DNA of 64,000 nt, from NCBI GenBank assembly GCA_937922675.1, contig CALAJN010000002.1, positions 62,001 through 126,000 of the forward strand, read 5' to 3'. How positions within the stretch are numbered: the first letter of the stretch is position 1; every line of letters begins with the position of its first letter. Both the position numbers and the translations under genes were made by a program. Below, piece after piece: positions 51,997-55,983 of this stretch. The stretch is from an uncultured Granulosicoccaceae bacterium (GTDB taxonomy: Bacteria; Pseudomonadota; Gammaproteobacteria; Granulosicoccales; Granulosicoccaceae). The notes below the pieces were generated by a model, which was not told where the DNA came from, did no database searches, and saw only the letters and a list, made by a program, of their open reading frames with translations.

Positions 51997-52015
51997 GATC
52001 ATTGAATCAATGATC
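51997..52015. terminator. 19-bp perfect palindrome between convergent genes
   Basis: GATCATTGAATCAATGATC has 9-bp arms around one central base and overlaps the stop codon of the minus-strand TPR gene. It lies 31 bp after the DUF6524-like gene. As RNA it would form a short stem with about 7 usable pairs; no T-run follows. A bidirectional transcript end is plausible; a protein-binding dyad cannot be excluded. Confidence 0.45.
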
Positions 52016-53077
52016 TGTCATCAGTCCTGGCAGGTCTTGTTCAGCGGCGTCTATCAGCGATTGCGACTGATCTCGAAGGGATGCGATTTCAGTTTCATGG
52101 CTGGCTGCATCGCGAGCCTCCAGAACATCGGCAAGGGCGATCATCATTTGCGGTAGACCTGTTCGCGCGACGATGTCCCGATAACTGACCTCCGCTTGCT
52201 CCAGACGTCCTTGCAGCGTATCGACTTCCGCGACGTGCTCTTCAATGAGCCAATAGCCAGGAAAGGTCTCGTTGGCCATGGTGAAGTAGTGGTGCGCCTC
52301 GTCCAGCTGTTGCTGCTCCAGATGCACAATCCCACGTTGCAGTTGCATCCAACCAAGAGCATAAGCCGACGTGCCGAGGAATCGCTCGCTTGCGACTTCC
52401 AGCCATTGCTCTGCTGCTTGATAGTCGCTTTGTGCAGAATGCCAATGAGCCATTCGCACGGCGCTGATCATGCTTGGAGCGGATGCGTTCAGTTGCTGAT
52501 AAATCGCACCGGCTTCAACGTGGTTTTCGGTTTGCATGAGAGCATCGGCACGCAGACCCTTGATCCGCAGCGCGGTGGCCTGATCGACCAACAGGGCATT
52601 GCCCGCGATATCAAGATCGCTCATCGCTTGATCAAAGCGGTGCACCGCAACATTGATACCCGCTCGTGTCAGAAACGGCCCGGCTTTGTCGCCGGACAAG
52701 GCAAACGCTCTGTCAATGGCGTCAAGCGCAGCACGATAGTCTGTGGCATTGCCTGAAAGGCGTGCACGGTCAAGGCGTGCTGATGCGAGTCTTTCAAGGT
52801 GTAGCCACGAACGCTTGTTGGCACGAACGAGCCTCTCGATTGAATCGATGGTGGCGTCTACCCGCGCAAGCTCTTCATCGAAGGAGCCGCTTGTTCTCAC
52901 GGCCCCGGCGGCTGGAACCTCGCCGGTAGTGCCTGTGTCAACCGGAATTGAAGCTCGGTTGGCACTTGCCGGCGCCGGCGCTGATATCAGCACGCTCGTG
53001 CACAACAGCGCCGCTCGCAGCCAAGGTGCAGGTGATAAGGGGAGAGGCTTCCTTGCCATCGTATCTGCTGTACTCAT
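52007..53077 (-). CDS. Exported TPR-like protein, partner of the split DUF4331 genes
   Basis: A 356-residue protein with a signal peptide (LRAALLCTSVLISAPAPASA) and helical repeats from about residue 60 to 335 that fit the TPR pattern weakly (SAYALGWMQLQRGIVHLEQQ; FPGYWLIEEHVAEVD; EQAEVSYRDIVARTGLP). No catalytic motif is visible, so a periplasmic scaffold or recruitment role is the best guess. It is the last of three co-directional genes: 10 bp separate it from the DUF4331 C-terminal half gene. ATG start at 53077; a second ATG lies 6 codons in, directly before the signal sequence. Confidence 0.8.
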   Translation of the reverse strand: MSTADTMARKPLPLSPAPWLRAALLCTSVLISAPAPASANRASIPVDTGTTGEVPAAGAVRTSGSFDEELARVDATIDSIERLVRANKRSWLHLERLASARLDRARLSGNATDYRAALDAIDRAFALSGDKAGPFLTRAGINVAVHRFDQAMSDLDIAGNALLVDQATALRIKGLRADALMQTENHVEAGAIYQQLNASAPSMISAVRMAHWHSAQSDYQAAEQWLEVASERFLGTSAYALGWMQLQRGIVHLEQQQLDEAHHYFTMANETFPGYWLIEEHVAEVDTLQGRLEQAEVSYRDIVARTGLPQMMIALADVLEARDAASHETEIASLRDQSQSLIDAAEQDLPGLMTDH

Positions 53078-53087
53078 CCCCGTCGAA

Positions 53088-53699
53088 CTACGGCTGGTGT
53101 GGCGCTGCTACGAATGGGAAAGCATCCCCGAACGCGAGGTCGTTTGCAGCCGGGTTGAGCACGCCGACCAGATCGCCCGGGGTTTGCGGTGGCTCGTCTC
53201 CGGTGAGTTCAAGCAGGGCGACAGCCAGAGTGACGTCAATGACTGGATCGGTCAACAAGCGTCCGTTCGGGAAGCCGCTGGCAGTAGTGGTGTCAATTTT
53301 AAGGGTGTCGGGCAGGATCAACGGCACAGCAAACTGCGCACAGGTACCCGTGCCGTCGCCCACTACCGTGCAGGGAGTTAGCCCAAGGTCAGTGAGCTGC
53401 TGATCAAGCGCGCCGTGCAGAAATGTAAGGCTTCCCAGGATTTCGGGTACGAAATCACCCGCGCTATCGTTGACGGGGTCCGCCATGTTGTAGGCATCCG
53501 TGCTCTCGATCAGGGCTGTCGCAATTGCAGGCATGCCCATTCGGTCCACGCGGGTGAATGTTTCGATCGCGTCTGTCGAGAAGGCAAACGGCTCAGCCTC
53601 TGGGGTATCCGCTCCATCGTCGTCATCACTGCTGCAAGCGGCCAGTACAAACAGTGGAAGAGTCAATGCAACTACTGATAGTTTCTTTAAGGTTTTCAT
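53088..53699 (-). CDS. Lipoprotein resembling the C-terminal half of DUF4331
   Basis: A 203-residue protein with a lipoprotein signal (VVALTLPLFVLAAC, cysteine at 22) and an acidic spacer (SSDDDDGADTPEAEP). The remainder contains the landmarks of the second half of DUF4331 proteins: TRVDRMGMPAIATALIES, then DAYNMADP and FPNGRLLTDPVIDVTLAVAL. In one-piece family members these follow directly on a segment like the end of the next protein upstream (LQTWATTAS). It lies 9 bp after that gene. Function unknown; probably membrane-anchored in the periplasm. Confidence 0.8.
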   Translation of the reverse strand: MKTLKKLSVVALTLPLFVLAACSSDDDDGADTPEAEPFAFSTDAIETFTRVDRMGMPAIATALIESTDAYNMADPVNDSAGDFVPEILGSLTFLHGALDQQLTDLGLTPCTVVGDGTGTCAQFAVPLILPDTLKIDTTTASGFPNGRLLTDPVIDVTLAVALLELTGDEPPQTPGDLVGVLNPAANDLAFGDAFPFVAAPHQP

Positions 53700-53708
53700 G
53701 ATGATGTC

Positions 53709-54332
53709 TTATTGAGAGGCGGTAGTGGCCCAGGTTTGAAGCGCGCCGCCACCTGGCATGACAGTCTCCACGGGCAGTTGCACGGCAAGCACTGTGATGT
53801 TGAGGCCGGCTACATCGTCCTGAGTCGGGTCGAAGGAGATAACGCCGGTGGATATCGTCTCGTTGAACCCGCTTGCATTGAAGAAGAAGGGATCGTCGGC
53901 GAGGCCAGCGTAGGCTGCGATATCGTCACCTGACAGAACAGTGTCCACGGCGCCTTCGATCAGTGAGGTATCCGAGGCATCGGAGACGCGCAGGCCCCAA
54001 TCTCCGTCAACATTCTGTGCAAAACGCACATACAGATCGAAGTCGGATACCGCGTCCGGGGTCTCCGAGGTGTCAAAGTGCATTCCGTACAGCACGCTCT
54101 CATCGAAGGCCGCTTCCATGCCGGGCGCGCTGAAAGTACCAAAGGTCACGATCAGGTTCAGCTGCCCATCCGCATGCCAGGCGTAATAGTCACCAATGTC
54201 AGCTGACAGCTGAGCGGTTGCGCCAGGCGCTTCCTGGTGGTCGGCTGCCTGCAGGCCGCACGAGGCGATCAAGGCCAAGCCGGCGGCTAGCGACCTCGCT
54301 TTGGTCCGTGGTAGGGCATTTCGTTGTTGCAT
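53709..54332 (-). CDS. Exported protein resembling the N-terminal half of DUF4331
   Basis: A 207-residue protein with a signal peptide (SLAAGLALIASCGLQAA) and the family opening ADHQEAPGATAQLSADIGDYYAW, shown here in part; the typical HxEAP and DxxDxYAF-like landmarks are present. Downstream segments (LYVRFAQNVDGDWGLRVSD; DDPFFFNASGFNET; ITVLAVQLPVETVMPG) match the first half of DUF4331 proteins, and it stops right after LQTWATTAS. ATG at 54332 preferred over a TTG 4 codons earlier. First gene of the three-gene run divergent from the ECF sigma factor. Confidence 0.8.
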   Translation of the reverse strand: MQQRNALPRTKARSLAAGLALIASCGLQAADHQEAPGATAQLSADIGDYYAWHADGQLNLIVTFGTFSAPGMEAAFDESVLYGMHFDTSETPDAVSDFDLYVRFAQNVDGDWGLRVSDASDTSLIEGAVDTVLSGDDIAAYAGLADDPFFFNASGFNETISTGVISFDPTQDDVAGLNITVLAVQLPVETVMPGGGALQTWATTASQ

Positions 54333-54412
54333 GTCTGAGCTCAATCTCTGTTCGCATGAATTCGCCCTTGTGTGCCGGGCAACCTCAGTCTACGGGCAAA
54401 CATGAGCGCGAG

Positions 54413-54448
54413 ATGCACCAACTGTATTTTTTTCTGCTGCAGGTGCAT
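54413..54448. promoter_or_regulatory. Inverted repeat in the DUF4331/ECF divergent region
   Basis: ATGCACC (54413-54419) and GGTGCAT (54442-54448) are perfect inverted copies separated by 22 bp that include a T-rich tract. It lies 80 bp from the DUF4331 start and just before the sigma factor start region. A protein-binding site for control of one or both directions is possible. Confidence 0.4.
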
Positions 54449-54470
54449 ACACTACAGGCCGCCGCGACTG

Positions 54471-55118
54471 ATGCTGTCCTTGTCGCGACAATGTGCCGAC
54501 GCGACAAGTGATAACTCGCTACCTTTGCAACAGACTGCTGCCCCGATAGTGAAAGACAAAGCTGATAACGACGAGCTTCGCGGGCTCTTGCAAGCCGCGG
54601 CAACAGGTGACCGGCGCGCCTTTGAAGCCTTGTATTTGCATACCAGCTGGCCTCTGTATCGCATTTTGCTGCGTATGTTGAAAGTGGAGGCCATCGCACA
54701 AGAAGCCTTGCAGGAAGTTTTCATCAAGATCTGGCAGCGTGCTGATCACTACGATCCCGATCTCTCGGTCCCCATGGCATGGATGTCGCGCATTGCACGA
54801 AACCAGGCCATAGACACGATGCGTTATCAACAGATAAGAGTTGATCTGGAATTGGACAATGGCGAGCGATTGCTTGAACAGCTGGTGGATGCATCACCGG
54901 GCCAGCGCCCGGACGACTTTGATTCAGCGCTACCGCTGCTCCATTGTCTGGAGCAACTCGCACCAACACCTCGTTCCTGTGTGGTGCGAGCATTTTGCGA
55001 GGGTTACTCGCAGGAGGAGTTAAGTGCGCAGACTGGCGCTCCGATTGGCACTGTCAAGAGCTGGATCCGGCGTAGCCTGAGCGCACTGCGCCGTTGCCTG
55101 GATCAGTTTCATGAGTAG
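54471..55118 (+). CDS. ECF-type RNA polymerase sigma factor (SigK/RpoE-like)
   Basis: Extracytoplasmic-function sigma factor. Region 2: RRAFEALYLHTSWPLYRIL, ALQEVFIKIWQRADHYDP and MAWMSRIARNQAIDTMR; region 4: LPLLHCLEQLAPTPRSC, EGYSQEELSAQTGAPIGTVK and the end RSLSALRRCLDQF. The ATG at 54471 gives 215 residues; a GTG at 54549 gives 189, closer to the usual ECF length, so the start is uncertain. It overlaps its anti-sigma gene by 8 bases. Divergent DUF4331 genes are the obvious regulon candidates. Confidence 0.9.
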   Translation: MLSLSRQCADATSDNSLPLQQTAAPIVKDKADNDELRGLLQAAATGDRRAFEALYLHTSWPLYRILLRMLKVEAIAQEALQEVFIKIWQRADHYDPDLSVPMAWMSRIARNQAIDTMRYQQIRVDLELDNGERLLEQLVDASPGQRPDDFDSALPLLHCLEQLAPTPRSCVVRAFCEGYSQEELSAQTGAPIGTVKSWIRRSLSALRRCLDQFHE

Positions 55119-55983
55119 TACTGACAAGGAAGAGTGGTGGCTTGTCGAAGCGGGTGAGTACGTTCTCGGTACCCTGCGTGGTCCAGAGCGCGATCTGTTC
55201 GAAAAGTTACTTGAGCGGGATAGCGATGCCAGATCCATGGTGTACTTCTGGGAGACTCACCTGGCAACGCTGGACTCCGTGCTGGCGCAACAATCCGCGC
55301 AATCAGTCGCTACATCGGTACCGAGGTTTGTCTGGGAGGAGATAACACGTCGTTTGGACGACTTGGTCCCGTCAGCTGCCGACACCACATCAATCTCAAA
55401 GCGTGCGGTCAAACTCCATGTCAACGGGATAGACAGTGCCGCAAATCGCTTGCCTCTGTGGCGCTTTGCAGCCGTCGCCTCGATGGTTGCAAGTGTCGCT
55501 CTCGGGGCACTTGTACTCAACCAGTTCAGACTCAACCCGGTCATGTATGCGTCCGAGAATCCCACTGGCAATCCTGTTGGTGCGGACATACCTGCCGTAT
55601 CGGCAGGCGTCGCCGATGACCTTGATGTAGTGGCCGTTCTGAGTGACGAAGAGGGCGCTGTATTGTGGCTTGTGGTTGCGGATGAGACAGACGGTAGTCT
55701 GCGCGCGATCGCTCTGCAAACTCCGGCACAGTCGGACACGCAGTCACATCAGTTGTGGGTGTTGCTTCCTGACGACGGCGGAGTTGAGTCGGTTGGACTG
55801 TTACCCTACCGTGATGGCTCGTCCAGGACTTACCAACTGTCGTCCGAGGCAGCGCTGGAACGATTGAGGGCCGGGGTAGCATTTGCGATCAGTGTTGAAC
55901 CTGCTGGCGGCACCAAGAGCGGCGGCCCGACCGGGCCTGTCATCAGTTCAAGCGCATTCACTCGGGTAGACGACGCCTTGTAA
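55111..55983 (+). CDS. RskA-type anti-sigma factor
   Basis: A 290-residue single-pass membrane regulator. The N-terminal anti-sigma part has the family sequence WWLVEAGEYVLGTLRGPER; one membrane helix (RFAAVASMVASVALGALVLN) is at about 118-137; the C-terminal periplasmic RskA domain contains GAVLWLVVADETDGSLRAI, SHQLWVLLPDDGGVESVG and AFAISVEPAGG-type sequence (about 180-275). It should hold the upstream sigma factor at the membrane until an envelope signal. The ATG overlaps the sigma gene by 8 bases. Confidence 0.9.
   Translation: MSSTDKEEWWLVEAGEYVLGTLRGPERDLFEKLLERDSDARSMVYFWETHLATLDSVLAQQSAQSVATSVPRFVWEEITRRLDDLVPSAADTTSISKRAVKLHVNGIDSAANRLPLWRFAAVASMVASVALGALVLNQFRLNPVMYASENPTGNPVGADIPAVSAGVADDLDVVAVLSDEEGAVLWLVVADETDGSLRAIALQTPAQSDTQSHQLWVLLPDDGGVESVGLLPYRDGSSRTYQLSSEAALERLRAGVAFAISVEPAGGTKSGGPTGPVISSSAFTRVDDAL

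Follow-up and report, generated by a model that had tools for sequence, protein, structure and literature searches.

The window analysed here is a stretch of 64,000 nucleotides from an uncultured Granulosicoccaceae bacterium, in which two consecutive open reading frames on the minus strand were found at the coordinates originally given. Gene A (53709–54332, minus strand) encodes the N-terminal half of a DUF4331 protein, with a cleavable Sec signal peptide. It starts at ATG 54332, or at an in-frame TTG upstream at 54344, has its stop at 53709, and ends in LQTWATTASQ. Gene B (53088–53699, minus strand) encodes the C-terminal half, as a lipoprotein. It starts MKTLKKLSVVALTLPLFVLAAC, its family part begins TRVDRMGMPAIATALI, and its signal, LFVLAAC-S, has the form of a bacterial lipoprotein signal, with a hydrophobic stretch followed by the lipobox cysteine. 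The lipobox as read from the gene is LAAC (53634–53645, minus strand), with Cys22 as the predicted lipidated residue.

Both genes exceed the curated cut-off of 27 for PF14224, gene A with 54.6 bits in two stretches (profile positions 2–81 and 149–234), and gene B with 42.2 bits (250–421). The matches fall on different, consecutive stretches of the profile and not on the same half of the family, and neither gene taken singly contains a complete DUF4331 domain in one chain. The original prediction of two complementary exported halves is thereby upheld: on sequence grounds, genes A and B together are one DUF4331 member in two chains. A search of NCBIfam gave no useful match for either gene. The window genome has a second DUF4331 gene, which is a large one-piece form cut by the end of its contig (L001, G000:C20:11-421).

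The break had been predicted to fall at a junction that one-piece proteins read through, and one-piece homologues do contain this segment. It can be measured as the distance from a conserved Trp, in the last strand of the N-half, to a conserved Arg, in the first strand of the C-half. This gap has a median of 12 residues (range 12–28) in 12 compact one-piece proteins, and is 21–46 residues long in 80 large ones. Split N-halves end 5–12 residues past the same Trp (107/107), which together with the 12-residue spacing places the break at or near the turn of a predicted β-hairpin. In the window, the last strand of the N-half is LQTWATTAS (53715–53741, minus strand; strand 168–177 in the AlphaFold2 model), with the split directly after it. 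The first strand of the C-half, identified by the model (strand 231–236) and by the 12-residue Trp-to-Arg spacing, is TRVDRM (53538–53555, minus strand), and in compact one-piece proteins it is probably the hairpin partner of the last N-half strand.

AlphaFold2 was used to predict the structure of the window pair joined as one chain, by reading through the TAA stop. The model has a pLDDT of 83.4 and forms one globule from both halves, with a pTM of 0.83, although such a value says less about contact between two chains when these were modelled as one. Part of the signal and linker between the halves has pLDDT below 50. A is predicted to be a β-sandwich, and B to be mainly helical, with the two strands TRVDRM and LKID. 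Comparison with immunoglobulin-type sandwiches using VIA gave alignments that start at N-half residues 3–16 and end at residues 319–326 in all 50 of the rows shown; the end points are in the C-half, just beyond the LKID strand. We infer from the model that the TRVDRM and LKID strands of B would complete the sandwich of A. The best VIA matches were antibody VH domains (Z 7.7), which VIA rates as ordinary, and no kinship is claimed. Foldseek found no fold relative in the PDB at E ≤0.001, and no solved structure was found by sequence (best E 0.056).

A search with gene B gave 30 related loci, including Granulosicoccaceae, Myxococcota, Gemmatimonadota, Eisenbacteria and Alphaproteobacteria, and in these both halves are separate open reading frames wherever the contig extends far enough. 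Among the loci examined, wherever a split N-half has contig in reach, a C-half adjoins it, in the order N before C (107/107; Granulosicoccaceae, Myxococcota, Gemmatimonadota and Alphaproteobacteria). PF14224 was matched in 19 of 57 genomes picked for relatedness to that of the window, which is one of them, in 34 of 299 of a Caulobacteraceae-type family centred on a Phenylobacterium genome, in 61 of 235 genomes from the Enhygromyxa phylum, and in 30 of 369 of the window's class. In the window's class, split pairs occur only in the window genome and one other (G616), the remaining matches being one-piece or cut by contig ends. Within the window's genus, 10 of 27 genomes have split pairs, eight of type I and two of type II (the latter marked by CGGR), and several have one-piece paralogues beside them. 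In two relatives of the window organism (L032 3311-4186, L033 3502-4320), the split pair is immediately preceded by a CHRD-domain gene, assigned by Pfam for L032 and by similarity for L033.

The survey suggested in the original prediction thus finds the split form in several phyla, as a sample shaped by the searches and not as a census. The 208 non-redundant N domains, drawn in this way from loci L001–L248 and the window, comprise 95 in one-piece proteins, 68 in split pairs, 39 in split pairs with a permuted C-half, one in a one-piece protein with a permuted C-half, and five without a C-half in reach. Four of these five are at contig ends (L001, L016, L086, L179), and in the fifth (L168) the C-half is beyond the distance limit; among the loci examined, no N-half away from contig ends lacks a C-half. 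As judged from these loci, the split is an ancient two-gene form shared by several phyla, and is not new in the window genome. The presence of split pairs in several phyla rules out a recent split there, and on this point the original prediction, which treated the split as a local event, has to be revised. Its other proposal, that the second half has its own lipoprotein signal, agrees both with gene B and with the family: under a strict rule, 90 of 107 C-halves have a lipobox ahead of them, as against 7 of 204 N domains. The linkers of the C-half lipoproteins are long and variable in length.

The order of segments within the C-half was followed with separate HMMs for its two parts, C1 (RMGMP...) and C2 (GFPNGR...). 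The order is C1–C2 in the pairs of Myxococcota and Granulosicoccaceae and in one-piece proteins, and C2–C1 in pairs from Phenylobacterium, Novosphingobium, Sphingosinicella and Sphingomonas. The inversion is visible with PF14224 itself, where profile positions 362–421 come ahead of 247–293. Rotation of the permuted chains improves their score against gene B of the window in 40/40 cases (42–60% identity over about 157 residues), whereas unpermuted controls score better in their native order (53/55). The rotated scores are 246–392, compared to at most 75 for shuffled sequences, and the rotated alignment is superior along the whole domain. A linker of 11–13 residues joins the old ends (40/40), and the N-half is directly upstream in all 39 two-gene permuted pairs. 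By this comparison, the C-half of Sphingomonadaceae and Caulobacteraceae is circularly permuted. A binning artefact is excluded, because Sphingomonas colocasiae JCM 31229 and Sphingosinicella sp. YJ22 are named strains and not metagenome-assembled genomes. AlphaFold2 gave a pLDDT of 35 for a permuted C-half alone, from 7 rows only.

Full-length matches to a profile of the permuted form came from 37 of the 298 sphingomonad-family genomes, which have 40 copies between them and include the query genome G063; five further genomes have weak partial matches alone. The Caulobacteraceae-type family has full-length matches in 8 of 299 genomes (counting the fused case in G297), and a sample of 385 genomes from across the class has them in 2, one being G063 again. 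The trees group the permuted rows as a single clade (FastTree 0.986; SH-aLRT 99). We take the permuted order to be the derived one, from comparison with the order in one-piece and type II sequences. A quick tree had the permuted forms arising inside the unpermuted type I clade, but this was rejected, as the arrangement with the unpermuted forms as one clade has the higher likelihood (p-AU 0.674). Duplication is described, in excerpts from PMC3320104, as one of two main models for circular permutation. Enhygromyxa salina SWB007 has tandem extra C-halves behind an N, C and TPR set (L043 4733-5480, 5547-6289), the last copy being spread over two frames, which indicates that duplication does occur in this gene.

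Some individual loci depart from these patterns. At four loci from Phenylobacterium-type genomes (L054, L055, L089, L090) there is an additional split pair, which is unpermuted and has a long insert; the genomes of L054, L055 and L089 have a permuted pair as well, which in the fourth genome (G179) is only partial. A 679-residue one-piece frame (L155/L211, G879) groups with type I, and its C1 segment is missed by the C1 model. In G297:C60 (L093/L199), a single frame of 369 residues has the N-half fused straight to a permuted C-half, and lacks the final strand of the N-half as well as the lipoprotein signal and the first cysteine. It looks like a re-fusing deletion or an assembly error.

The point at which the permuted chains were opened corresponds to a loop in gene B of the window bounded by Cys110 and Cys120 (53340–53372, minus strand). 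Of the unpermuted type I C-halves, 46/49 have a cysteine pair in this loop between C1 and C2 (one has four cysteines), 3/49 have no loop cysteine, and none has a single one; the assignment of the 56 unpermuted rows to types I and II is taken from the tree. Two-gene permuted pairs have exactly one cysteine near each new end (39/39), which implies that the chain was opened between the two cysteines. The pair is probably a disulfide that staples the new ends together, to judge from this pattern, and the three type I C-halves that lack both cysteines indicate that such a disulfide is not essential everywhere.

The next gene in the operon encodes an exported protein with a Pfam TPR match (52007–53077, minus strand). 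On the other side is a divergent gene for an ECF sigma factor (54372–55118, plus strand; Sigma70_r2 and r4_2), whose true start is probably 3′ of the listed GTG, followed by an RskA-type anti-sigma factor (55111–55983, plus strand; PF10099, 60.3 bits). Within a 1.2 kb flank, a TPR gene is downstream at 43 of 59 split loci and 28 of 37 permuted loci, and at only 26 of 84 one-piece loci. One-piece gammaproteobacterial loci (L258–L261, L266) have the arrangement of a divergent ECF gene, DUF4331, TPR and HupE/UreJ-2; among the 20 one-piece loci that include these (L249–L268), many are without ECF, TPR or HupE/UreJ-2 neighbours. ECF genes are also found beside DUF4331 at other loci. The ECF and TPR neighbours shared with these one-piece loci imply that the window pair occupies the operon slot of the one-piece protein.

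Of 20 permuted loci with wide flanks (L269–L288), 18 have a same-strand TPR gene downstream, with L274 inverted and L272 having none; HupE/UreJ-2 comes after the TPR gene in eight and is inverted in L274, and ECF or anti-sigma genes are nearby in four. No HupE/UreJ-2 was found among the proteins near the window pair that were scanned with Pfam. In the HupE/UreJ-2 neighbours that were found, a His comes directly after the signal-like stretch in 18/18, where the start of the L283 permease was placed a few residues further on by eye. HupE/UreJ-2 proteins with a mature His1 are described, in excerpts from PMC12537917, as 'anglerase' (Ang-1), which binds Cu and Ni and gives thermal-shift effects with both. 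Like Ang-1, the permeases encoded next to DUF4331 in related operons have PF13795 and a mature His1; they are separate proteins from DUF4331. A HupE/UreJ-like gene of Sphingobium is strongly induced by Ni, although in another gene cluster (excerpts from PMC5557971). The operon is likely to serve capture or sensing of metal in the envelope.

According to signal-peptide analysis, the third residue of the mature protein is a His in 199 of 204 N domains. This His is missing from the N-halves of four split pairs (L184, L188, L191, L192) and from a single one-piece protein (L149). Cleavage at this position agrees with the (−3, −1) rule at a fraction of 1.0 for split sequences (n = 63), 0.99 for one-piece ones (n = 88) and 0.97 for permuted ones (n = 39). 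In one-piece proteins the rule alone also permits cleavage directly before the His (0.82 of 88). The strict A-x-A pattern is found at the assigned site in 92 of 196, and in at most 10 at every other offset from 1 to 12, which favours the His as residue 3 over residue 1. Mature residues 1 and 2 vary, being mostly A/S and then D/S, and no His-bearing tripeptide has Pro at position 2. For gene A, the His and the (−3, −1) rule predict a mature protein that starts at 54245 with ADHQEAP, the Ala-Asp-His tripeptide being encoded by 54237–54245 (minus strand).

An amino-terminal Cu/Ni site of the ATCUN type is NH2-Xaa-Zaa-His, where Zaa is not Pro, as given in the abstract of PMC12929937. The predicted mature N-termini of DUF4331 agree with this definition in the same 199 of 204, and in this respect resemble ATCUN proteins, metal binding by DUF4331 itself being putative. 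The NH2-Ala-Asp-His start of gene A is thus likely to be a Cu(II)/Ni(II) site.

In unrooted trees, the large one-piece proteins form one clade, and the compact, split and permuted forms another. The Granulosicoccaceae clade of the window sits among Myxococcota, and this placement suggests a transfer. Type II splits form a separate clade, inside which nine compact one-piece proteins of Caulobacteraceae type are nested (L091, L092, L094, L096–L099, L200, L201); these are possible re-fusions. The nesting implies that either re-fusion or repeated fission has happened.

The simplest objection to a two-gene protein is a nonsense mutation or assembly error specific to the window, with read-through of the stop giving one chain, since A and B share a reading frame, with one TAA and 9 nucleotides between them. 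This is scarcely credible. A complete lipoprotein signal is present between A and B, in close relatives the corresponding two genes overlap or are in different frames, and pairs of the A/B type are kept across phyla. For 68 unpermuted pairs, the offset between the frames of the N- and C-halves is 0 in 21, 1 in 14 and 2 in 33, which is near random, so that the shared frame in the window is a coincidence and not a design for read-through. Together with the intervening signal peptide this rules out stop read-through and also frameshift, the latter in agreement with the original prediction. The opposite history, in which the two-gene form is ancestral and one-piece proteins are fusions, is unlikely. 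The nested type II proteins indicate that fusion may happen, the trees are unrooted, and a single clade of all two-gene forms is not rejected (p-AU 0.143). On the other hand, contig ends and tandem C copies are the only places where N- and C-halves were found separately, the cut is inside a hairpin and not between independent domains, and the extra lipoprotein signal is on the C-half only. The last two points favour fission over fusion. Of the fission originally proposed, the real split and the added lipoprotein signal stand, while its direction is favoured and not proved, the trees being unrooted.

It is also conceivable that the halves act apart, A as a soluble periplasmic protein and B as a lipoprotein, with only the operon in common. 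The long and variable linkers of B would allow this, and the A–B complex is itself putative, but the halves are conserved side by side in the slot of the one-piece form, and the joined model has a high pTM with strands placed across the break. We consider separate action quite improbable. A more serious alternative is that X-X-His is a structural or export feature and not a metal site, and that the operon does some other job, such as sensing of envelope stress. Other residues are conserved (D16, D19, Y55 and W176) and may account for the conservation. Against this, the position of the His in the mature protein does not change although the two residues ahead of it vary, the second of them is never Pro in the His-bearing tripeptides, and the neighbouring permease has His1 wherever it was found. 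We rate this alternative as possible, at somewhat less than even odds.

Our preferred reading, to which we give a probability of about 0.7, is that the two DUF4331 half-genes make a composite, membrane-anchored, metal-binding envelope protein, whose C-half was later permuted in some lineages. Its starting points are computed (the pair of halves, their separation across the family, the circular permutation, the pattern of cysteines, X-X-His and the gene order), and the complex, the disulfide, the membrane tethering and the metal binding would be inferred steps. The DUF4331 chain would have been broken long ago at a β-hairpin turn. A would have kept the β-sandwich and its cleavable Sec signal, and B the mainly helical half, gaining a lipoprotein signal; the halves would then reunite in the periplasm, with B holding A at the membrane. 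As a separate chain, B could have its ends relocated at a later stage, and in Sphingomonadaceae and Caulobacteraceae it would have been opened inside the probable disulfide loop and closed by the 11–13 residue linker. In a system for metal capture or sensing, DUF4331 may then be the partner that binds metal in the periplasm. The fuller version, in which DUF4331 is an envelope Cu/Ni family, split at a hairpin and then permuted in a disulfide loop, that works with the His1 HupE/UreJ-2 permease in capture under ECF control, is held tentatively, at a little under an even chance.

The one-piece proteins share with the window pair the order N, C1, C2, the X-X-His start and the operon slot, but are single chains without a lipoprotein signal; the large ones have extra residues inside the N part and no type I cysteine pair. 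Circular permutation itself is a known kind of event, and natural cases are mostly met as end products. To our knowledge there is no precedent for a half-protein permuted inside a cysteine-bridged loop. In the openly licensed PMC literature, no paper was found that names DUF4331, and no strict match for natural circular permutation combined with gene fission; looser matches include PMC3320104. PMC3608174 was considered as a source on DUF4331 and rejected, its excerpts being on other matters. The natural permutations described in excerpts from PMC3320104 (saposin/swaposin and transhydrogenases) likewise have N- and C-terminal parts swapped with the fold presumably kept, but unlike those cases, the permuted DUF4331 chain is half of a split protein and is cut between conserved cysteines.

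If this fuller version is true, the family is a natural stepwise record of a fission that opened the way to permutation. One-piece, split and split-and-permuted forms, and one that is apparently re-fused, coexist in living bacteria, which makes it possible to test directly in what order the events took place and what the probable disulfide does. The X-X-His start, together with the His1 permease neighbour, would be the first specific functional lead for DUF4331.
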